DNA of 64,000 bases from Theodoxus fluviatilis (taxonomy: Eukaryota > Mollusca > Gastropoda > Cycloneritida > Neritidae). This document shows positions 131 through 63,821 of this stretch, in pieces. Under the pieces are notes generated by a model that had not been told where the DNA came from, made no database searches, and saw nothing but the letters and a program-made list of their open reading frames with translations. The stretch covers positions 134,599-198,598 of the forward strand of contig JAWQFJ010002771.1 in assembly GCA_034096865.1 (NCBI GenBank). Direction: 5' to 3'. The position numbers were made by a program, and so were the translations under genes. The stretch's first letter is position 1. Each line of letters opens with the position of its first letter.

Positions 131-981
131 CAAGAAGGGCAAAGCCCATACGACTCACATGCTTGACCTTGACCTTTATATGACCTTGACCTTCAGGTGA
201 CCTTCAAGGTCAAGGTCAAACAACTAAACCTACCAATGACATCATACACTAAGAAATGCTTTACACATTTTTCCTACCAAAATACATGTGACCTTGACCC
301 AAGGTCAAGGTCATCCAAGGTCATGCAACACAAAGCTGTTAATTCAAGACATAGGAAGCACAATGGTGCTTATTGGCACTTTCTACCATGAGATATAGTC
401 ACTTTTAGTGGTTCACTACCCCATTTTGGTCACATTTCATAAGGGTCAAAGTGACCTTGACCTTGATGATATGTGAACAAATGTGTCTCATGATGAAAGT
501 ATAACATGTGCCCCACATAATTATTAAGTTTGAAACAGTTATCTTCCATAGTTCAGGGTCAAGGTCACTTCAAAATATGTATACAATCCAACTTTGAAGA
601 GCTCCTGTGACCTTGACCTTGAAGCAAGGTCAACCAAACTGGTATCAAAAGATAGGGCTTGCTTAGACCTATATACCACTTGTAGCTAAGGTCGCCATTC
701 TCAATAACGTGGGAGAAAATTGGGAAAATGTGAAAAATGACTGTTTTTGAGACCACATTTATGGCTCCTGTGACCTTGACCTTGAAGCAAGGTCAAGTCA
801 CTATGTATGTTTTTTGAGGCCTTGTCATCATACACCATCATGCCACATTTGGTGTTGATAGACTTAATAGTCTCCGAGAAAAATCCAACGTTTAAGTTTT
901 TTACGGACGGACGGACGCCCGCCCGCCCGGACGTACGACACGGCTCAGTACATAGACTCACTTTTGCTTCGCATGTGAGTC
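131..981 (+). mobile_element. HINE (Helentron-derived) element, copy A
   Basis: A non-coding repeat of 851 bp. It begins with CAAGAAGGGCAAAGCCC, which contains a GGGC-GCCC stem, followed by GACTCACATGC, and ends with the inverted copy GCATGTGAGTC. The body is full of TGACCTTGACC and AAGGTCAAGG, and an ACGG/CCCG (GTCY-type) tetranucleotide run lies at about 901-935. The flanks are A residues on both sides (TT on the other strand) with no target duplication. Subterminal inverted repeats, a terminal stem-loop, a GTCY run and TT insertion are the known hallmarks of HINE/DINE-1 elements; assigning this family to them is my inference. It has no real ORF. Copy B at 26117 is nearly identical. Confidence 0.7.
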
Positions 982-1820
982 AAAAAGTCACTTTCTTTTA
1001 AAACCTCGATTCTGAAAATTTGATAATATTGAATCGGACCTAACTTCCAGTCAGTGTGCAAAATCTCAAGGAAATCCGTCCAGTAGTTTTTGAGATATAA
1101 GCCGTGGAGACGGGACAGACAGACACACACACACACACAGACAGATAAAGTCTGTAGGACCTCCAGTAAACCTGGAGGGATAAAAACAAGTAACCCCATG
1201 AAGATCTGAAATTATTTCCAGAATCAAGAAATAAGCATTTCTTCCAACTTAGATTCTGAAGAGTATTTTTAACTATTAGCTAAAACATTTTATTCATTCA
1301 AGGAAGATGGGGGTGGGGTGGGGGTGTGGGGTTTAAAATTCTAATCTTTTCAAAGTTAAATTAGACATCAAGAAAAACAAGGGGGTGGGGTCTTAAGTTT
1401 ACAAACCTACCTTGGATGCATTCATGCACATTAATGATTTGCCCAGTATTTTTCTGCATTAACATTTCCACTTAAAGTCATTAATGCATCAACACATAAG
1501 TTTTGCTAGTTGAGTTGTTCTCCTGAGTGACTGGATGGGGTGCTCTATTAAAGTTTCTTATAACCAGCTATTTTTTAGTTTTAGGCAAAGAAACATTGCA
1601 TCAGGAGGTTGTACATATGTCCAAGAAACACCATGAGCAGTGGGATTTGATGAAAGTAAAGTTTGTGCATGTTAGAGTAATAAATAATGTAAAATTGCCA
1701 TCAGAATGGAGGCCAAAAAGTGGAACGACTGACCCAACACGCTCCACAAACTATTTACAGCAAAGTATGCCATTGGTGTTTAAAAATTCTGCTGTGAATC
1801 TGTTAATAAAATTTTTGTTT
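982..1820. other. gene-poor stretch with a short hairpin repeat
   Basis: After the HINE there is a repeat-like sequence with a (AC)n run near 1124-1140 and a small CCTCCAG/CTGGAGG hairpin at about 1160-1178. From 1300 to 1390 the sequence has G-rich runs. An open frame at 1527-1943 runs into a transposon and shows no domain that I recognise; I do not call it a gene. Confidence 0.4.
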
Positions 1821-9407: not shown

Positions 9408-11236
9408 TCAGTCTCTTAACCCTGAGATGAGTTGTTGAGGCACCACTGATGACTTTCGGACAATCTTCCTCCATCGATCTCTATCCTCTGTGGCTCGCTG
9501 TGAGTCAGCAAAGGTCAAGCCTGTCCATCTTTGATGTTGTCTTCTCACCTCTTTCTCTGCCTGCCTCTCCTTCTCCCACCTGGTACGGTACCTTGCAGGA
9601 TGGTCTTGACCAGCCCACTGCCTCTTGACACGTGACCGTACCACTTCAGCTTTCTGCTTTTCACAATTGACAGCAGGTCTTCGTACTGTCCAATTGCTCT
9701 CCTGATCCTGTTGCTGACTTCCTCATTCGTGACATGGTCTTTATAGGAGATGTTCAGAATCTTGCTGTAGCATCTCATTTCCAGGGCTTGTATCCGTCTC
9801 TGTAGTTCAGATGTGAGTGTCCAGGACTCGCATGCATACAAGAATACGGAGATGGCCAGCGTGCGCATGAGCCTGATCTTCGACGCGAGAGTGATATTTC
9901 TGTCAAGCCATATGGCTTTAACTTTACCGATGCTGCTGTTGTTTGTGCTATCCTGGACAGTATCTCTGGTTTGGACCCTTCATCAGTCATGATAGATACC
10001 AGGTATTTGAAGTTGTTCACAGCTTCCAGTTTTTGGCCTTTCACTTTGATTTCCATTTTGAAGCCCCGAGGATTGTTCGTCATCACCTTGGTCTTCTCGG
10101 CGCTGATCTCCATGCCATATGCCTGTGAGGTCTTGTCCAGGTGCTCGACAAGACTAGTCAGCTCCTCTTCACTTCCTGCTAATCCATCAAAGTCATCAGC
10201 AAAACGTAAGTTGGTGATCTTTCTGCCACAGATGCTGATCGATCCTTCGTGTTCTGCTAGGGCATCAGTCATTATCCTTTCGAGGAAGAGGTTGAAGAGT
10301 GTGGGGGAGAGTAGACAGCCCTGTCTGACTCCGACCGTTGTCCTGAACCATTCGCCTGTGGTACCATTCAACAGGATTGCGCTGGTCGCTCTGTTATAGA
10401 GATGTTCGACGACTTTGATAATCTTGGAGCTGATGTTGTAGCTTCTCATGTGGCCCACAGCGCAGCATGCCAGACTCTGTCAAATGCTTTCTTAAAGTCT
10501 ATAAAGACATGGTACAGATCTTGTTGGTGTTGTAGATGTTTCTCACACAGGACTTTCAGATTGAAGATCTGATCGGTGGTGTTCCTACCTGGTCTGAAAC
10601 CTGCCTGCTCTTCAGCAATGATTTTCTCTGCCTGAGGTTTTAATCTGTTCAACAGTACTTTCAGCATGACCTTGCTGGGATGGCTGATGAGGCTGATTGT
10701 GCGGTAGTTCTGGCACATTTGCAGGTTTCCTTTCTTGGGCAATGTAATCACTAGGGACTGTGTCCACAGGGTTAGCCAACCTCCCGTCTGCCAGATCTTA
10801 TTGCAGATCTTTGTGAGTGCATCGATCATTGCGTCGGCTCCTGCCTGGATGATTTCCCTGGAATGTTGTTGTTGTTGTTGCGTACCTGAGCTAAACACTC
10901 CCAGGATCACCCAAGTGGGTGAGATGATTGCGTGTGTGACTGTTTTTGAACACCCCGCCATATAGGCAGCCACGTACACTCCGTCTTCAGGGGATTTGAT
11001 CTCTGTCTCCAGAGAATGCCTGTTGTTATGTTAGGAGCTTACCGCGGCTGAAGATAATCCCCACATAACAGTACAACATAACAACATTTTGCTGTAGCCT
11101 TAATTGGTTTTTGGCTGGAGTCAACAAATAGCAGCCTTTGCCCAAGGCAAGTGGAATGTTGTCAACCCTAGCTGACTTCCCTTTCTTGAGGGACTTAACC
11201 GCTGTCTCCACCTCCACGCGGTTAAGGAGTATAAAC
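9408..11236 (-). pseudogene. non-LTR retrotransposon reverse transcriptase, 5'-truncated and frameshifted
   Basis: Read leftwards, the frames give in order: VKSLKKGKSARVDNIP (about 11160-11200), the RT block NYRTISLISHPSKVML and EEQAGFRPGRNTTDQIF, then DFKKAFDRVWH, GVRQGCLLSPTLFN, the catalytic LRFADDFDGLAG (an FADD box), and a C-terminal part with YACESWTLT, LKWYGHVSR and a final SVVPQQLISGLRD before a stop at 9408. At least three frame changes break it (10979-10446, 10458-9775, 9868-9545 and 9644-9408 are in different frames). No endonuclease domain remains. A SINE-like element sits inside it (10870-11151). It is a LINE-type pol; I do not assign the clade. Confidence 0.85.
10870..11151 (-). 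mobile_element. SINE-like insertion with 11-bp target duplication
   Basis: This segment of about 282 bp interrupts the reverse transcriptase exactly between DNIP and EIIQAGAD. It is bounded by the direct repeat TGGAATGTTGT (10859-10869 and 11152-11162); removing one copy restores the RT alignment apart from one missing base. On the minus strand it ends in (CAA)n, a simple-repeat tail. Length, tail and target duplication fit a SINE. I do not see a clear tRNA promoter box, so the type is uncertain. Confidence 0.6.
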
Positions 11237-16758: not shown

Positions 16759-17066
16759 GCAATCTTTGGAACCAGTATAAACGCAGCGAAAATGATTCCT
16801 GTGGCACCGAGCTGGTGGCATGAATCTATGGTTATACTCTCGCCAGTAAATGCTTTCTGACCGGAACCTGTAGTCTAACACTGTTTGACGAGCTGCTGGA
16901 GTCCACACTTCGATGATTCGTGTATCGACATATGGAGTCGGTAAGTGATTTAATCTACATTCCGTCTGTGTTGAACGTTAAATGGTTAATCGAGTGGAAG
17001 TTTCTTCTGTAGGAATCCGTCCGATTCCGAAGTTTGATATCATCGGATAGCTCAGAAACAGTTTTT

Positions 17067-17631
17067 GACTCACATGCGAAGCAAAAGTGAGTCTATGTAC
17101 TCACCCGTTTCGTCCGTCCGGGCGTCCGGGCGTCCGTACAAACTTTAACATTGGATTTTTCTCGGACACTATTAAGTCTATCAACACCCAATTTGGTATG
17201 ATGGTGTATGATGACAAGGCGTACAAAAACATACATAGTGACTTGACCTTGCTTCAAGGTCAAGGTCGCAGGGGCTGTCTAAAAAAACAGCCATTTTCCA
17301 AATTTTCCCAATTTTTGACTGAAGTTTTTGAGATTGGATGCCTGACCTATATATGGTTTATAGGGCAAAGTAATTCCTATCTTTTGATACCACTTTGATT
17401 GACCTTGCTTCAAGGTCAAGGTCACAGGAGCTCTTTAAAGTTGGATTGTATACATACTTTTTGAAGTGACCTTGACCCTGAACTATGTAAGATTAATCTT
17501 CCCAACTTCATAACATTGTAGTACACATGTTATACTTTCATACTAGGTCACCCGTGTCGTCCGTCTAGGCGTCCGGGCGTCCGTCTGGGTGTCCGGGCGT
17601 CCGGGCGTCTGGGCGTCCTGTAATCCTTAAA
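17067..17631 (-). mobile_element. HINE copy G, left part of a copy split by a Gypsy element
   Basis: It begins GACTCACATGCGAAGC (the subterminal repeat) after a T run, continues with GTCY-type GTCCGGGC runs, the AAGGTCAAGG body, and a second GTCY run, and ends at GTAATCCTTAAA (about 17631). The missing remainder, starting AAACTTTAACGTTGG, is found in the same orientation at 24099-24726. Together the two parts reproduce one multi-module copy like 56646-57840, so the 6.5 kb between them was inserted into it. Confidence 0.6.
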
Positions 17632-17850
17632 CACAATTTTTTGCACGGGGCCACAGATCACGGTTGTTGGATGCCATTAGCAGATGGTTTCTCATGTTGT
17701 CTGCTCCTAACTTCCGGTCAGTGCGCTGACCGCGCTCAGCTTCTGGAGGGGGGTCTGGCAATTGCCAGCCCCAGTGCGTGAACGCACGCGCAGGAATCAG
17801 GTCATTCCTGAATTGTCCCAGGGAGAACTGGCATCAACTCAAAATTTTTC
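17632..17850. repeat. direct repeat of 23230-23448
   Basis: About 219 bp beginning CACAATTTTTTGCACGGGG and ending AACTCAAAATTTTTC. It is practically identical to the right-hand copy. The two lie near opposite ends of the presumed Gypsy element, as partial LTRs would. Confidence 0.85.
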
Positions 17851-19424
17851 TTGAGGGAAGAGGAACGGAGAACGAGACGATCTGCCTACGAGATATAACG
17901 GCGAGTACTTATGATCTTTTCGATCGAATTTTTATCGGTTCCTCAGTTTTTCTCTACGTGCAGTTGTGTGTTGATGCCGTGAGAGTGCATTCGTTACTCG
18001 GATATTCACATGTGCGGAGATTGAAAGACTTTCTCGATTATCATGGAAAAGTGAGAGTGCATTCGTTACTCGGATATTCACATGTGCGGAGATGTAAGAC
18101 TTTCTCGATAAGAGTGGTCTGATTGAGTGGCGGACATTGTATACATGTATGATTGTGCGTCGATGAAAACCCCACGTGGGATTCTCACGGTCCGAGACCA
18201 TGTGAATTCACACATGCCACGAAATATTTTCAGACGGTCCGCCGTTTCACTGAAACTGCAGAGTACCTCATTCGATAATCCAATCTGGCTAAGAACGGCT
18301 CTCACAATTTCTACCACGTTTTCTCCGGAATTCTTGCTAACTTACGATCTGTACGCATCAAGTATGTTCAGAGAAATGTGCGACAGACTTGTGCCTCCCA
18401 TCATAATGATCATTTGCGAATCATTCGGCATGATTCTGCCCGATTCTATGCTAAATTACGATATGTACGCACAGCATTAATTTATCATAGGTGTATGTTG
18501 AATGCATTAACAGATCGTGAAACCTCCTACAGTTCACACATCGAATGCAGGTCAACGCAGCCACGCCGAACATTTGTCTCCAAGATGGCGGCACGCAATG
18601 TACTCATGCTGTCCGCCATCTTGAATCTTAAAAGCTAGCACCTCTCAAAATGCCTCGCTCAATCTACGCCCGTCTTCGATTGGCTCGATAGCAAGCAAAG
18701 AACGAAACTGCCCCTTCGGCGAGATCTGCGTAGATCTACCGAGATCTTCGCATTTTCAAACCAGGCACAGGTAGCTCCTGGCGCCATAATAGCGGTGACA
18801 GGGGAGGCAACTCTGACTGGTAAGTTGCTAAGCAGGGAGCAGCGATAGTCTCCCTTGCCATTGCACGGGAACCTCTCGGTGTTGTGACCTTTGCAGAATG
18901 TCACTGTAAAACATTTAAGTGGTGTGAGTTAAATGAGTGTGATAATTAGCTTACTGAGCTACAGTCGAAAAAATTCCAGGTTACCCAGAGGCATAAACCA
19001 CTTTGATACCGGCAGAGCGAGAGGGTTCTGGTTGGAGCAAATGTCACTGTCAATGACTGGATGTACATGTTGGTTATGCTTTGCATATACTTTCAACATG
19101 GCAACACAAGAGTCGTGACCAATAACCTTGCAGTGACTAACCTACTTTCTGACTGGGTCAGAAACAAACATCTTTTTTGAGAAAAACCAAATGTGAGTGG
19201 TTGAAACTCATTTTGTAGACAAAATACAACAAACTGAAATGATGTGAACTTTTTTCCTTGAAGTGGGGCCTAATGCCCTGCGTGGCTTAATGCCATGCTT
19301 TTCCCTACTACTTCACAGCTAACAGTAAAGCTGTTCACAAACATCCTGCCTGTGATAGCACAGACCAGCCTTTTCTCTTTCTGTTGCCTTGTTTATTTCT
19401 ACTGTAAGTGAAATGTGCAAATTG
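17851..19424. other. no gene recognised; small YY1-type hairpin
   Basis: No gene could be supported. A frame at 18127-18480 has no recognisable domain. At 18581-18623 the arms CAAGATGGCGG and CCGCCATCTTG form a hairpin in which each arm is a YY1-type motif. This region is inside the presumed Gypsy insertion. Confidence 0.35.
17979..18115. repeat. 72-bp tandem duplication
   Basis: GTGAGAGTGCATTCGTTACT starts at 17979 and again at 18051. The repeats share CGGATATTCACATGTGCGGAG and GACTTTCTCGAT, so there are nearly two full units. Confidence 0.85.
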
Positions 19425-20026
19425 TCACCCATCGATCTCGAAGTAGCGGATGTAATAGTCCACTGTTATCAGGAAGGATCTGTCTTGCCAATTGAAGATA
19501 TCGGTGCCAAGCTTCTGCCACGGTCGAGTTGGGACTTCGTGGGATAGGAGTGGTTCCTTTGGGTTTGCTGGGCTCATACTGGCACAGATGGTACAGGCTG
19601 CGATGGTGTTGTGGATCTGTTTTTTCATCCCTGGCCAGAACATGATTTCTCCTGCTCGTTGCTTTATTTTCTCAATTCCAAAGTGGCTGGAGTGAATCTT
19701 CGTTATTATTTCTGGACGCATGGCAAGTGGTAAAGTATCTTCTCTCCTTTGAAGATGATTCCATCGGTAAAGTATCTTCTCTCCTTTGAAGATGTTTCCA
19801 TCGATGGAGGAAAGTTCATCTCTGAAGTTCCAGAACTCACTGATGGTTGATTTGCAGTCTGTACGAAGTTCAGGCCATCCATTCTGTATGGTTGACTTCA
19901 AATCTTGCAGTTGAGGGTCTTCTGCAGTGGCTTTCTGAATTTGCTTCATTTTCACATCGGTGACGGGCTGATTCTCGACGACAGTGTGGACGTATGCGTC
20001 GATGTCTTCAGCAATTTTCACTGTCT
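19425..20026 (-). pseudogene. Gypsy/Ty3 Pol: integrase zinc-binding region and start of the catalytic core
   Basis: On the minus strand, after the 114-bp array, the frame reads KIAEDIDAYVHTVVENQ, then AMRPEIITKIHSSHFGIEK. Next comes the H2C2 zinc finger: its first His is in HSSHFGIEK, and its Cys pair is in AACTICASMSP after FWPGMKKQI. The integrase core then starts with RPWQKLGTDIFNW, which carries the first catalytic Asp, and continues LITVDYYIRYFEIDG before a stop at 19425. The rest of the core, with the second Asp and the Glu, is gone. A 37-bp duplication (about 19731-19806) lies in the linker before the finger. The order is that of Gypsy-type pol. The copy is dead. Confidence 0.8.
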
Positions 20027-21120
20027 TCTGGTTCTGTTGCAGGTATGGGCGCAAGCCCCGGTGGTGGACTTCTTCGTGAACTCCAATGCTTGGGCGTAAT
20101 GCCTTGGGGGAACCCTGTGGGATCCCAGTGGGCCCAGAGCCCTGGTTCTGTTGCAGGTTTGGGCGCAAGCCCTGGTGGTGGATTTCCTCGTGAAATCCAA
20201 TGCTTGGGCGTAATGCCTTGGGGGAACCCTGTGGGATCCCAGTGGGCCCAGAGCCCTGGTTCTGTTGCAGGTTTGGGCGCAAGCCCTGGTGGTGGATTTC
20301 CTCGTGAAATCCAATGCTTGGGCGTAATGCCTTGGGGGAACCCTGTGGGATCCCAGTGGGCCCAGAGCCCTGGTTCTGTTGCAGGTTTGGGCGCAAGCCC
20401 TGGTGGTGGATTTCCTCGTGAAATCCAATGCTTGGGCGTAATGCCTTGGGGGAACCCTGTGGGATCCCAGTGGGCCCAGAGCCCTGGTTCTGTTGCAGGT
20501 TTGGGCGCAAGCCCTGGTGGTGGATTTCCTCGTGAAATCCAATGCTTGGGCGTAATGCCTTGGGGGAACCCTGTGGGATCCCAGTGGGCCCAGAGCCCTG
20601 GTTCTGTTGCAGGTTTGGGCGCAAGCCCTGGTGGTGGATTTCCTCGTGAAATCCAATGCTTGGGCGTAATGCCTTGGGGGAACCCTGTGGGATCCCAGTG
20701 GGCCCAGAGCCCTGGTTCTGTTGCAGGTATGGGCGCAAGCCCTGGTGGTGGACTCCCTCGTGAACTCCAATGCTTGGGCGTAATGCCTTGGGGGAACCCT
20801 GCGGGATCCCAGTGGGCCCAGAGCCCTGGTTCTGTTGCAGGTTTGGGCGCAAGCCCTGGTGATGGACTCCCTCGTGAAATTCCCATGCTTGGGCGTAATG
20901 CCTTGGGGGGAATCCTGTGGGATCCCAGTGGGCCCAGAGCCCTGGTTTTGTTGCAGGTCCTGTGGGATCCCAGTGGGCCCAGAGCCCTGGTTTTGTTGCA
21001 GGTATGGGCGCAAGCCCGGGTGGTGGACTTCCTCATGAACTCCAACGGATGGGCGTCATGCCTGGTGGAATTCCTGCAGGATCACAGTGGGCCCATGCCT
21101 TGTTGGAATCCTTCGGGACC
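20027..21120 (-). repeat. 114-bp minisatellite in frame with Gypsy pol
   Basis: A tandem array with a period of exactly 114 bp (unit starts for example at 20031, 20145, 20259, 20373, 20487, 20601, 20715 and 20829). Truncated or variant units reach about 21120. The central units look identical or almost so. Because 114 is 38 codons and the unit lacks stops, all three minus frames and one plus frame stay open over about 1 kb. The minus frame joined to the integrase codes for a 38-residue repeat with GSGPTGIPQGSPKALRPS. All these frames most likely result from the array and not from selection. Confidence 0.9.
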
Positions 21121-22757
21121 CCATCGGGCGGAGCCCTGTGATGATATTCTTGTGAACTCCAATTGTTAGGAATAGTGGCGAGTTTCATGTTGGTGGCACA
21201 AGATTTTGTTGCATTTTGCAGAATGCCTCCCCAACGACGGGGCACACGCAGGCGCAGGATTCCCAGCAGGTCGCAGGACAAGATGGAGTCACTCCCTTCC
21301 ACTGCTCTGCTTGACCACGCACAGGCAATCTCCGACCACCGCCACTCCAGCGTGGCGCCCCCACGGTCTTTCGGCCGGATCACCTGGGAAGCGGCTATCC
21401 TGCAACAGCTGAAGGAGAACAGCGCAACATTGATGGGCCTCTCCGCACGATTGGCGACCCTGGAGCACGAATGGATGCAACTGCTGCCATACAACCCTCC
21501 AGCGTGGCCCCCACGGACAGCAGCACCATCGTCTCCCCCACTGCCAGCACCAGCGTGGCACCCACTGCGCGTCCTTTGAGGGCTACAGCGTGGTGCCGTA
21601 TCTACGGCCGCTAGAGACCTTGCACAATGACCTGACCCTCAAAGACATGGAGTGTAGGACAGCAACTTATGGCGGGGGCGTTGAGCAAGGTGACAAGAGT
21701 GGCATACCTAAGAACTTGAGCAGCAGTTAAGAACTTTGATCAGCAGCACAGACTCCCGAAGGCCTTGCCAGTAGATGCGCATGTCCTTTTGACTTACAAA
21801 AGCGAGTCTGTGTGTCCGTTAAAAAGGTCAGAATTTTAAATGTTGTCTAAAAACAGGAATTTTTCACAATTTCCTAATTTCGCTAAGGTTTTGGAGATTG
21901 GATACCTGACCCATGTATGGTGTATAGAGCAAAGTCATCCCAATCTCTTTATACCAGTTTAACTCTTCCAAACTCATAACATTGTAGTACACATGCTATA
22001 TTTTCATATTAGGTCACCCGTGTCGGGTGTCATCCGTTTAAAACCCTAACGTTGGAATTTTTTCTCCCAGACTATTAAGTCTATCAACACCCAATTCGGC
22101 TTGATGGTGTATGATGACAAAGCGACTTGACCCCGCTTCAAGGTCAAGGTCGCAGTTGCCTTAAATGTTGTCTAAACAACAGCCATTTTCTCACATTCGC
22201 TCAGCATGTGAGTCGTGTGGGCTTGCCCTTCTTTTCTGTATATCTGTACATGCACGAGAAGGGGGTATGCTCCAGCCACAGTAGCATCAGCCTTTTCAGC
22301 AATCGAACCCACCAGACTCCTTCATCATTAGGAAGATGCCGCAAGCTAGGAAAACATTAAAACCCACAGGGATCATCGCATACCAATCTCAAAACCTATC
22401 CCACAAACTCTTTTCATGGCTATGTTTTTATGAGCCTTCCATGAATGGTGAGAGTAGGGGACTTGACAGTATCCAAGCACAATCTCAGTCTCGCAGATAT
22501 AACATTGGGCCTTGATAAGTTGTTCATTACTTTCCACTCGGCCAAACACGCAATACCTGCACACTCAATATCTCCACTGTTAGTCACGGAATCTACTCTA
22601 ATATGAACGTTACACTTTTTCTGCAGATGGCACGGTGGTTGCACATACCTACCGGGTATTGTGTCTGTTTTTCGTGCGTCAGTTGGTCTTCTCTCTAGTT
22701 TCATTCTCTGGGTTGTGTGGGGGCTGCTATAAGTCGTCTGCAACTCCTTATAGCTGT
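21121..22757. other. rest of the Gypsy insertion, no clear gene
   Basis: A plus-strand frame at 21163-21579 contains RITWEAAILQQLKENSATL and looks like a coiled-coil, gag-like sequence, but it has no diagnostic motif and opposes the direction of the pol. A minus frame at 22420-22773 has no recognisable domain. A HINE fragment occupies 21791-22236. Confidence 0.3.
21791..22236 (-). mobile_element. HINE copy H, shortened and diverged
   Basis: It starts GACTTACAAAAGCGAGTCTGTG after a T run and ends GCATGTGAGTCGTGTGGGCTT then GCCCTTCTT before TTC, as in the other copies read backwards. The middle has deletions and more point changes than the rest, so it is an old copy. It lies inside the Gypsy insertion. 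Confidence 0.6.
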
Positions 22758-23229
22758 GGCGGTCAGCCCTCACACAAAACAGGGGTCAAGAAGATTAGTT
22801 ACATGTTATGATGTGATTGTAAATAATTTTGTACATGGGTGAGAGGTAAAACTACTAGAACAAATAACACTGAGATCAGAACAAGGGACATAACCAGGGT
22901 CATGGTTTTGATTAATTGTATGAATGTAGAATTCTGTTTCTGAAGAGGAAAATTTGCAATGTGAGTGATGTGTACATTTGTTTGCACAACCTCAGCCGTG
23001 TTATATAAGCAATAATATCTTTGAGGTTCTGAGGCATGCTGCTATGATTATTATACTGTCGTATGTATAATATATGGTGTCACTGGCTCTTTATTAAGAA
23101 AGAATACTGGATGTTGTGTTAATCGTTGGTTATTATGCTTTCTTAATAAAGATGCCCATTTTCTCTCTCGAATCAAGTGTGCTGTGGTCTTGTGCAAAAA
23201 AGGATTTGTGTGAAAGAATGCAACACAAA
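22758..23229. repeat. 472-bp direct repeat, copy 1
   Basis: It begins GGCGGTCAGCCCTCACAC and ends GAATGCAACACAAA. By eye it is identical to 23627-24098; short open frames in the two are the same residue for residue. It contains TTATATAAGC and CTTAATAAAG, which could serve as TATA box and polyadenylation signal. A partial LTR is the likeliest meaning. Confidence 0.85.
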
Positions 23230-23448
23230 CACAATTTTTTGCACGGGGCCACAGATCACGGTTGTTGGATGCCATTAGCAGATGGTTTCTCATGTTGTCT
23301 GCTCCTAACTTCCGGTCAGTGCGCTGACCGCGCTCAGCTTCTGGAGGGGGGTCTGGCAATTGCCAGCCCCAGTGCGTGAACGCACGCGCAGGAATCAGGT
23401 CATTCCTGAATTGTCCCAGGGAGAACTGGCATCAACTCAAAATTTTTC
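23230..23448. repeat. direct repeat of 17632-17850
   Basis: The right-hand copy, lying between the two 472-bp repeats. After AACTCAAAATTTTTC the sequence differs from that following the left copy. Confidence 0.85.
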
Positions 23449-23626
23449 CCCACCCTCCACCCCTAGCTGCCACCAACCTTGTTGTTTTACTAAACAGTCA
23501 CATATATTGCTTTCCATGTACTGACTGGTTACTCAATTGATCGCGTCCCTAGTGACTCTGGAAGGGTAGGAGCCATGCTTTTTCCCATGGGGTTTTTTAC
23601 CGCAGGTCCTTCCTTCATATTATTTA

Positions 23627-24098
23627 GGCGGTCAGCCCTCACACAAAACAGGGGTCAAGAAGATTAGTTACATGTTATGATGTGATTGTAAATAATTTTG
23701 TACATGGGTGAGAGGTAAAACTACTAGAACAAATAACACTGAGATCAGAACAAGGGACATAACCAGGGTCATGGTTTTGATTAATTGTATGAATGTAGAA
23801 TTCTGTTTCTGAAGAGGAAAATTTGCAATGTGAGTGATGTGTACATTTGTTTGCACAACCTCAGCCGTGTTATATAAGCAATAATATCTTTGAGGTTCTG
23901 AGGCATGCTGCTATGATTATTATACTGTCGTATGTATAATATATGGTGTCACTGGCTCTTTATTAAGAAAGAATACTGGATGTTGTGTTAATCGTTGGTT
24001 ATTATGCTTTCTTAATAAAGATGCCCATTTTCTCTCTCGAATCAAGTGTGCTGTGGTCTTGTGCAAAAAAGGATTTGTGTGAAAGAATGCAACACAAA
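23627..24098. repeat. 472-bp direct repeat, copy 2
   Basis: The second copy of 22758-23229, offset by 869 bp. It directly abuts the right part of the split HINE (AAACTTTAACGTTGG), so it marks the right end of the insertion. Confidence 0.85.
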
Positions 24099-24726
24099 AA
24101 ACTTTAACGTTGGATTTTTCTCGGAGACTTTTAAGTCTATCAACACCCACTTTGGCATGATGGTGTAGAATGACAAGGCCTCACAAAACATACACAGTGA
24201 CTTGACCTTGCTTCAAGGTCAAGGTCACAGGAGCTCTTTAAAGTTGGATTGTATACATATTTTGAAGTGACCTTGACCCTGAACTATGGAAGATAACTCT
24301 TCCAAACTTCATAACATTGTAGTACACATGTTATACTTTTATCATGAGACACATTTGGTCACATATCATCAAGGTCAAGGTCACTTTGACCCTTATGAAA
24401 TGTGACCAAAATGGGGTAGTGAACCACTAAAAGTGACCATATCTCATGGTAGAAAGTGCCAATAAGCACCATTGTGCTTTCTATGTCTTGAATTAACAGC
24501 TTTGTGTTTCATGACCTTGGATGACCTTGACCATGGGTCAAGGTCACATGTATTTTGGTAGGAAAAATGTGTGAAGCAGTTCTTAATGTATGATGTTATT
24601 GCTAGGTTTAGTTGTTTGACCTTGACCCTGAAGGTCATCTGAAGGTCAAGGTCATGTAAAGGTGAAGGTCATGTAAAGGTCAAGCAAGGTCAAGCATGTG
24701 AGTTGAATGGGCTTTGCCCTTCTTGT
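24099..24726 (-). mobile_element. HINE copy I, right part of the split copy
   Basis: It starts inside the element at AAACTTTAACGTTGGATTTT, has the AAGGTCAAGG body, and ends GCATGTGAGTTGAATGGGC then TTTGCCCTTCTTG before TT. It lacks the first subterminal repeat and the GTCY run, which are present at 17067-17631. Confidence 0.7.
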
Positions 24727-24849
24727 TCTAAGTTTAATCCTTCTAAGCATACATTAAATTAATTATTCCTCATCATTAAAAGCACTCAGCGGATTTCTGG
24801 GCATATCGGCCCAAAAGATTATGCAGACGGGATCGGTTGCCTTACTCGC

Positions 24850-25960: not shown

Positions 25961-26116
25961 CCCATTTATCAACGACACCGTTGCAAGAAGATCTTGGACA
26001 TGACTGGAGGGTCTCCGCCGTGGCGCACACATGCTTGTTGCCCGGAACCATTCATCAATATAAATAGAAAGAAGATACAAAAGAATGAAAGAAACATAAA
26101 GGAAAATAAAAAGAAA

Positions 26117-26995
26117 CAAGAAGGGCAAAGCCCATACGACTCACATGCTTGACCTTGACCTTTATATGACCTTGACCTTCAGGTGACCTTCAAGGTCAAG
26201 GTCAAACAACTAAACCTACCAATGACATCATACACAAAGAAATGCTTTACACATTTTTCCTACCAAAATACATGTGACCTTGACCCAAGGTCAAGGTCAT
26301 CCAAGGTCATGCAACACAAAGCTGTTAATTCAAGACATAGGAAGCACAATGGTGCTTATTGGCACTTTCTACCATGAGATATAGTCACTTTTAGTGGTTC
26401 ACTACCCCATTTTGGTCACATTTCATAAGGGTCAAAGTGACCTTGACCTTGATGATATGTGAACAAATGTGTCTCATGATGAAAGTATAACATGTGCCCC
26501 ACATAATTATTAAGTTTGAAACAGTTATCTTCCATAGTTCAGGGTCAAGGTCACTTCAAAATAGGTATACAATCCAACTTTGAAGAGCTCCTGTGACCTT
26601 GACCTTGAAGCAAGGTCAACCAAACTGGTATCAAAAGATAGGGCTTGCTTTGACCTATATACCACTTGTAGCTAAGGTCGCCATTCTCAATAACGTGGGA
26701 GAAAATTGGGAAAATGTGAAAAATGACTGTTTTTGAGACCACATTTATGGCTCCTGTGACCTTGACCTTGAAGCAAGGTCAAGTCACTATGTATGTTTTT
26801 TGAGGCCTTGTTATCATACACCATCATGCCACATTTGGTGTTGATAGACTTAATAGTCTCCGAGAAAAATCCAACGTTTAAGTTTTTTACGGACGGACGG
26901 ACGGACGGACGCCCGTACGCCCGGACGGACGGACGCCCGGACGGACGGACGACACGGCTCAGTACATAGACTCACTTTTGCTTCGCATGTGAGTC
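26117..26995 (+). mobile_element. HINE copy B
   Basis: Nearly identical along its length to copy A (131-981). The main difference is a longer ACGG/CCCG tetranucleotide array at about 26890-26950. The flanks are A residues on both sides. The close match of A and B, against more diverged D, H and G/I, suggests recent copying. Confidence 0.75.
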
Positions 26996-27582
26996 AAAAA
27001 GGAATAAATAAAAGCAAGCACGCCAAATAATTATCATTAACCACTAATTTTTGACACTGACAAATGGAGACCACTTGAATTTGAAGTTGAAATTTTATCA
27101 TGAAAAGAAAAAGTATCTTAGGGAGCATTGCTTGGCAATGTCCAGACAAAAAAAGGAAACGATAAGAGAGATTCCTCGTTTGCTTTTGATGGATTCATTG
27201 TGATGCATGATTTTTGTTGTTGTTGTGCAAAGTTATTCGAATCAGGATAATGCAGCTAGAGTTGGGAAAGAGGTGCTCTGTCAATATTCACATGACTTCC
27301 CACCAGTTTGAAGAGGGAGTTTACATGCAATCACTCTTCCTACTAGGACAACCTATAAGCTTGTTGATATTAGCAACCTACTCGGATCAGACAGAGCAGA
27401 TGGCTCCATTCCTCATGACAAGGGTCTCTCCCAGATGGAGTTGTGCAGTCAGCCTGAAAGATGGGTGTTGCGGCAACCGATTTCCCCAAATCAAGCCCAA
27501 ATATGACGATGACGAATACGATGACGAGGAGAGGGAGGTGGAAGAAAAAAAACCCGCGGCGAAGCAAAACCAAAAAGTATTT

Positions 27583-33606: not shown

Positions 33607-63821
<30,215 letters not shown>

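Follow-up and report, generated by a model that had tools for sequence, protein, structure and literature searches.

HINE-Mo and DINE-1, which are non-autonomous Helentrons, are described as having short subterminal inverted repeats (subTIRs), a 3' palindrome, a preference for TT or T-rich sites, an optional microsatellite with central repeats, and tandem copies (PMC4067079). Cg_HINE of the Pacific oyster, in the available description, combines a 5' subTIR and its complementary inverted repeat, a microsatellite of GTCC/GTCY type, a T-rich target, a short array of satellite DNA (satDNA)-like repeats of about 160 bp, a 3' subTIR followed by a palindrome, and conserved segments within otherwise different monomers (PMC7492417). 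For the BIV160/Cg170 satellites and pearl elements of bivalves, Helitron-like carriers are likewise described, with monomers of about 160 bp that have diverged outside two conserved segments (PMC5139131). Here, we analyzed 64,000 nucleotides of the gastropod Theodoxus fluviatilis (contig JAWQFJ010002771.1, positions 134,599 to 198,598; hereafter the window), for which an original prediction, made from the sequence alone, had proposed a HINE-type transposon family packed with nuclear-receptor half-sites. The structural features listed above recur in this element, its flanks are mostly T-rich, and conserved TGACCT-based boxes form its shared segments. We conclude that the element is supported as a HINE, whose anatomy was already known and whose sequence and dense TGACCT boxes are not described in the literature covered; we tentatively propose that the boxes may serve its own replication.

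Several differences from the described systems accompany these likenesses. The description of Cg_HINE, to which the element was compared by description and not by sequence, mentions no TGACCT box in the parts available, and the word "transcription" does not occur in the main text of that paper (PMC7492417). Unlike Cg_HINE, the element has strongly differing monomers within one copy, and its 3' subTIR lies about 22 nt from the 3' end, compared with the 38-60 nt given for mite elements (PMC4067079). The likeness to BIV160 is also one of description, as two BIV160 primer sequences established no relation to the boxes (PMC5139131). The ISX Helitron of Drosophila miranda is a further Helitron-type element reported to carry protein-binding motifs to many places, but the binding and effect of ISX were demonstrated by experiment, whereas the element described here is known from sequence matches alone (PMC4384637, PMC6417741, PMC6825717). 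No description of a HINE with receptor motifs or dense TGACCT boxes was found in the open-licence literature covered.

The abundance of the motif was quantified on both strands of the window. TCAAGGTCA, the extended half-site of NR5A/ERR receptors, occurs 101 times, with respect to a mean of 0.93 and a largest count of 3 in 100 dinucleotide-preserving shuffles, and a chance origin was rejected on these numbers. This count agrees with the order of 100 sites given in the original prediction. Nearly all the sites (99/101) are inside copies of the element, as are all 44 of the overlapping zero-spaced direct repeats (TGACCTTGACCT/AGGTCAAGGTCA) that had also been predicted, while outside the copies the 9-mer TCAAGGTCA was found twice compared with 0.45 expected from base composition. 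By sequence count, consensus half-sites are well above chance, as they would be in a cluster of receptor response elements. The sites are not independent of each other, because AGGTCA placed beside AGGTCA in a hexamer run yields TCAAGGTCA automatically. More specifically, runs with two or two and a half units of TGACCT fully enclose 69 of the 101 sites, and the independent evolution of many NR5A sites was set aside on this ground.

All eight full or partial copies that had been listed are present in the window, with a total of 8,057 bp by the intervals used for the motif counts. Copy A is at 131..984 on the minus strand, the strand of copies being given as HINE sense, with its 5' end at 984 and its 3' end near 133. 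On the same strand are copies D (38669..40289, with three central units in tandem), E (26114..26998), F (44010..44863), G (55454..56642) and H (56643..57843). G and H are arranged head-to-tail with no host DNA at their junction, an outcome expected when rolling-circle copying reads through a termination signal (PMC4067079). Copies B and C are on the plus strand: B is divided into a 5' part (17062..17620) and a 3' part (24096..24727) by an insertion of about 6.5 kb, and C (21787..22240), inside this insertion, is the oldest and is decayed, retaining one intact 9-mer. The TCAAGGTCA counts are 13 in A, 13 in B, 1 in C, 17 in D, 13 in E, 11 in F, 15 in G and 16 in H (sum 99), so that the expected dozen or so motifs per copy were found in seven copies (11-17) and not in the decayed copy C. 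Between copies A and E, the heads differ by 0.5% and the tails by 1.6%, so that the family was recently active. In copy D, we also observed that two of the three central units match as a 321-bp tandem repeat (39286-39945), and that at the 5' end GGGG replaces the usual T-run and one base of the subTIR is changed.

Both ends have a HINE anatomy, which supports the label: their parts follow the order published for Cg_HINE and, apart from the shorter distance of the 3' subTIR from the end, match HINE-Mo, with the correction that the copy originally placed at 131-981 reads on the minus strand. Along this strand copy A shows a T-run, the subTIR GACTCACATGC, the inverted repeat GTGAGTC, a GTCC-type microsatellite, central repeats, the subTIR GCATGTGAGTC, the palindrome GGGCTTTGCCC and TTCTTGT. 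The T-run and 5' subTIR are at 971..984 (subTIR at 971-981); GTGAGTC, at 955..961, is complementary to the 5' subTIR and would make a 5' hairpin with it; the microsatellite, at 902..935, varies in length among copies. The central repeats of about 160 bp extend over 445..930 (445-600, 601-763 and 764-930, with a related one at 282-444), followed by the 3' subTIR at 152..162 and the palindrome at 137..147, all on the minus strand. The subTIRs are 11 bp long, within the 11-15 bp range of HINEs, and the palindrome, with one mismatch in copy D, is near the 3' end as in HINEs, here at about 7 nt from it. GTGAGTC and the microsatellite recur when A, E and F are aligned, and the tail alignment shows them too, giving a 5' region of Cg_HINE type. 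A search of the window for the 5' and 3' end patterns retrieved 7 copies each with 0-2 mismatches (chance expectation 0.01 and 0.00, respectively). Of 7 flank rows, 6 show the T-run at the 5' end and that of copy D does not; insertion into T-rich sites without target duplication, as in HINEs, may apply here. Consistent with a non-coding HINE, the longest stop-to-stop frame of copy A is 92 aa, and a protein search with this frame returned no candidate. Collections of virus and prokaryote contigs contained neither a 25-nt box nor a 20-nt end as an exact match, a result of little information, and a 15-nt box pattern matched at least 120 stretches in viral contigs, presumably chance or coding matches.

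The boxes are the part that the central repeats of copy A have in common. These repeats share the TGACCTTGACCTTGA box and little else: the stretches 282-444, 445-600, 601-763 and 764-930 each start with a TGACCTTGACC box and align poorly elsewhere, and between monomers 601-763 and 764-930 the box is identical at 33/33 bases while about 64 of 116 aligned bases match in the remainder. Six boxes or box clusters were delimited in copy A, without assignment to a strand. Cluster 1 (164..218) contains TGACCTTGACCTT twice and then an opposed TCAAGGTCAAGGTCA, with a long predicted hairpin fold; cluster 2 (289..323) has TGACCTTGACC opposed to GGTCAAGGTCA, in an 11-bp hairpin with a 3-nt loop; box 3, TGACCTTGACCTTGA (452..466), is 94% complementary over 18 nt to box 4, an opposed AGGGTCAAGGTCA (553..570). 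Boxes 5 (601..633) and 6 (764..796) are identical 33-bp sequences. Units B5, D2, G1 and H1 are without the stretch between one 33-bp box and the next, as exchange from box to box would produce, and copy F combines two subfamilies in a mosaic.

The boxes are arranged in opposed pairs, and this arrangement accounts for nearly all the perfect short hairpins in the copies. Among the perfect hairpins inside copies (arm of 8 or more, loop of 3-20), 31 of 32 are made of TGACCT boxes in opposed pairs; outside the copies, 39 perfect hairpins were found in 55,738 bp, leaving out arms of two or fewer letters. The predicted fold of copy A as a single strand has an energy of -154.2 kcal/mol, whereas its 20 shuffles average -93.7 and none of them folds as well (z -11.5). 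Of six short pieces tested, the four box pieces reached z values between -2.8 and -5.5, with 4, 1, 0 and 0 of 200 shuffles folding as well, and the two terminal pieces folded weakly (z -0.9 and -1.6). At least as good a fold was obtained in 16/200 shuffles of the 5' hairpin piece, for which the fold alone is weak evidence, and in 34/200 shuffles of the 3' palindrome piece. When the boxes were kept and their orientation randomized, local folding became weaker in 192 of 200 trials, with 8 as good as the real arrangement.

The original prediction had also named motif retention in all copies, with divergence of other parts, as a sign of constraint, and had proposed comparing substitutions inside and outside motifs; run on the copies of the window, this comparison gave a mixed answer. 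The heads of 7 copies were compared, and the tails as 12 units from six insertions, with more than one unit from some insertions; the decayed copy C was treated separately from the alignment-wide counts, and the microsatellite and everything beyond it were excluded from the tail counts of private mutations and of private and shared columns. Retention was not clearly seen at the level of single copies: private mutations affect 12/1177 motif positions versus 81/5542 elsewhere (p 0.27), with 9/629 versus 22/1956 in the head (p 0.53) and 3/548 versus 59/3586 in the tail (p 0.056). Copy C likewise showed mismatches in motifs and elsewhere at 3/22 versus 64/430, 3/28 versus 73/382, or 2/22 versus 34/200, depending on the reference, its alignment to F being visibly poor. 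Protection of the motifs after insertion thus appears to be little or none, and host constraint on single copies is not clearly supported by the private mutations or by copy C. Variants common to at least two insertions are rarer in motifs, being found in 1/144 motif columns against 49/631 others (Fisher 0.0005, shift test 0.0095); in a first column test, the tail motif columns also differed from their surroundings (shift test 0.010). These data hint that the motifs may be constrained before insertion, in the transposing lineage, an observation confounded by patchy variation and coming from six insertions only.

Based on these observations, we tentatively prefer, at somewhat less than even confidence, the explanation that the TGACCT boxes serve the replication of the HINE itself and that receptor likeness is a by-product of the hexamer. 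The element would be moved by a rolling-circle protein encoded elsewhere, as its anatomy suggests, and the single strand produced by rolling-circle copying would fold, through short TGACCT runs in opposed pairs, into the row of hairpins that the sequence and its predicted fold display. The boxes may serve the Helentron Rep/helicase as hairpins or iterons or, alternatively, be fold-back or recombination points that keep the central repeats multiplying. The transposing lineage would keep them, and after insertion they would decay at a roughly normal rate, as the contrast between private and shared variants suggests without proving it, and their likeness to receptor half-sites would follow from the TGACCT hexamer. 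A HINE has no protein to make and no need of its own transcript; any protection in the lineage that transposes would therefore point first to recognition or folding of its DNA in the course of rolling-circle copying and, as a second possibility, to a host receptor through which chromatin is opened for the element.

Several results weigh against a role of the boxes in replication. With randomized orientation, global folding was as good in 82 of 200 trials, and because the orientation test passes locally and not globally, the hairpin arrangement, although it favors a folding role, is suggestive and not proven. No compensatory changes were noticed by eye among the 12 private motif mutations. Private variants counted by column are also rarer in motifs (12/144 versus 95/631; Fisher 0.033, shift test 0.11), the contrast between private and shared variants reaches only Fisher 0.063 (shift test 0.0105), and the head motif columns are as variable as the rest (9/91 versus 32/284; shift test 0.465). 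Most shared variants are in a few patches of the central repeats, so that mosaic exchange between subfamilies could produce the private/shared pattern. Finally, no Rep/helicase was found among the 20 scanned of the 35 open reading frames (ORFs) of at least 130 aa in the window.

Much of this would fit a passive spread, which we consider nearly as likely as a role in replication, although it too is held with tentative confidence. The boxes would then be satellite-like repeat sequence generated by slippage and by fold-back synthesis, which unequal exchange and gene conversion keep uniform, with nothing of consequence bound to them. SatDNA-like repeats of 140-180 bp are described as usual in bivalve HINEs (PMC7492417), exchange at the boxes is visible in the shortened units B5, D2, G1 and H1 and in the mosaic copy F, and both the mismatches of copy C and the variability of the head motifs are as a passive origin would have it. 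Passive spread does not account as well for the rarity of shared variants in motifs relative to a mask slid along the element, nor for the local hairpin arrangement, which surpasses random orientation in most trials. Binding of the boxes by a host receptor is possible in terms of their sequence, and FTZ-F1/NR5A, ERR or thyroid hormone receptor (TR) might occupy the clusters and open germ-cell chromatin, so that the non-coding element is copied more and the active lineage keeps the sites; we regard this docking as unlikely. The element contains the string AAGGTCAAGGTCA, and gel shifts are reported in which DR0 probes with this core were bound by oyster TR (PMC4692385) and by schistosome TRalpha (PMC2045677); a depletion of shared variants that private variants do not clearly show would also fit. 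However, oyster TR is reported to have bound all of DR0-DR5, with DR0 fourth in strength (PMC4692385), and the probe result is thus not specific to the zero-spaced arrangement. Moreover, the HINE encodes nothing and so offers a receptor no transcript to drive, a hexamer run yields the extended half-site by itself, and opposed hairpin pairing is unnecessary for receptor binding. The broader proposal, that the HINE lineage evolved and keeps dense zero-spaced half-site clusters for receptor-given access to germline chromatin, and that it would thereby seed receptor-responsive clusters in many genes simultaneously, coming here within about 25-30 bp of an EXOC6/Sec15 exon, appears to us rather improbable. 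Least probable by far is that receptors drive single copies as enhancers of host genes and that host selection maintains them. The distance between the 5' end of the GH tandem, which is that of copy H, and a splice donor recognized by eye in an EXOC6/Sec15-like exon (57843-58080, minus strand, which is also the sense of G and H; PF20651, E 2.5e-20) is indeed about 25-30 bp, but private mutations are not clearly fewer in motifs by position or by column, copy C retains one intact 9-mer, and A and E are too alike to show selection.

The surroundings of the copies include further mobile sequences. The insertion splitting copy B (17621-24098) contains, besides copy C, an integrase zinc-binding ORF (19425-21032, minus), eight 114-bp tandem repeats (20028-20958), and two pairs of identical direct repeats, of 472 bp (22758-23229 and 23627-24098) and 222 bp (17629-17850 and 23227-23448). 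A 156-aa frame at 42628-43098 on the minus strand matches the Tc5 transposase DNA-binding domain (E 2.1e-14), with a sub-threshold match to the CENP-B N-terminal domain, and reverse transcriptase fragments of retrotransposons (RVT_1) are found at 9775-11030 and 40253-40762.

In conclusion, the biochemistry of Helentron transposition is described as still to be done (PMC4067079), and if the boxes are hairpins or iterons of the element itself, this family offers a testable cis-element for Helentrons. If instead a host receptor binds them, the family would be an invertebrate case of a rolling-circle transposon spreading hormone-receptor sites and could be compared with ISX in Drosophila. In both cases, the family provides a warning that dense and perfect transcription-factor motifs in a repeat may be by-products of a short tandem, hairpin-forming unit.
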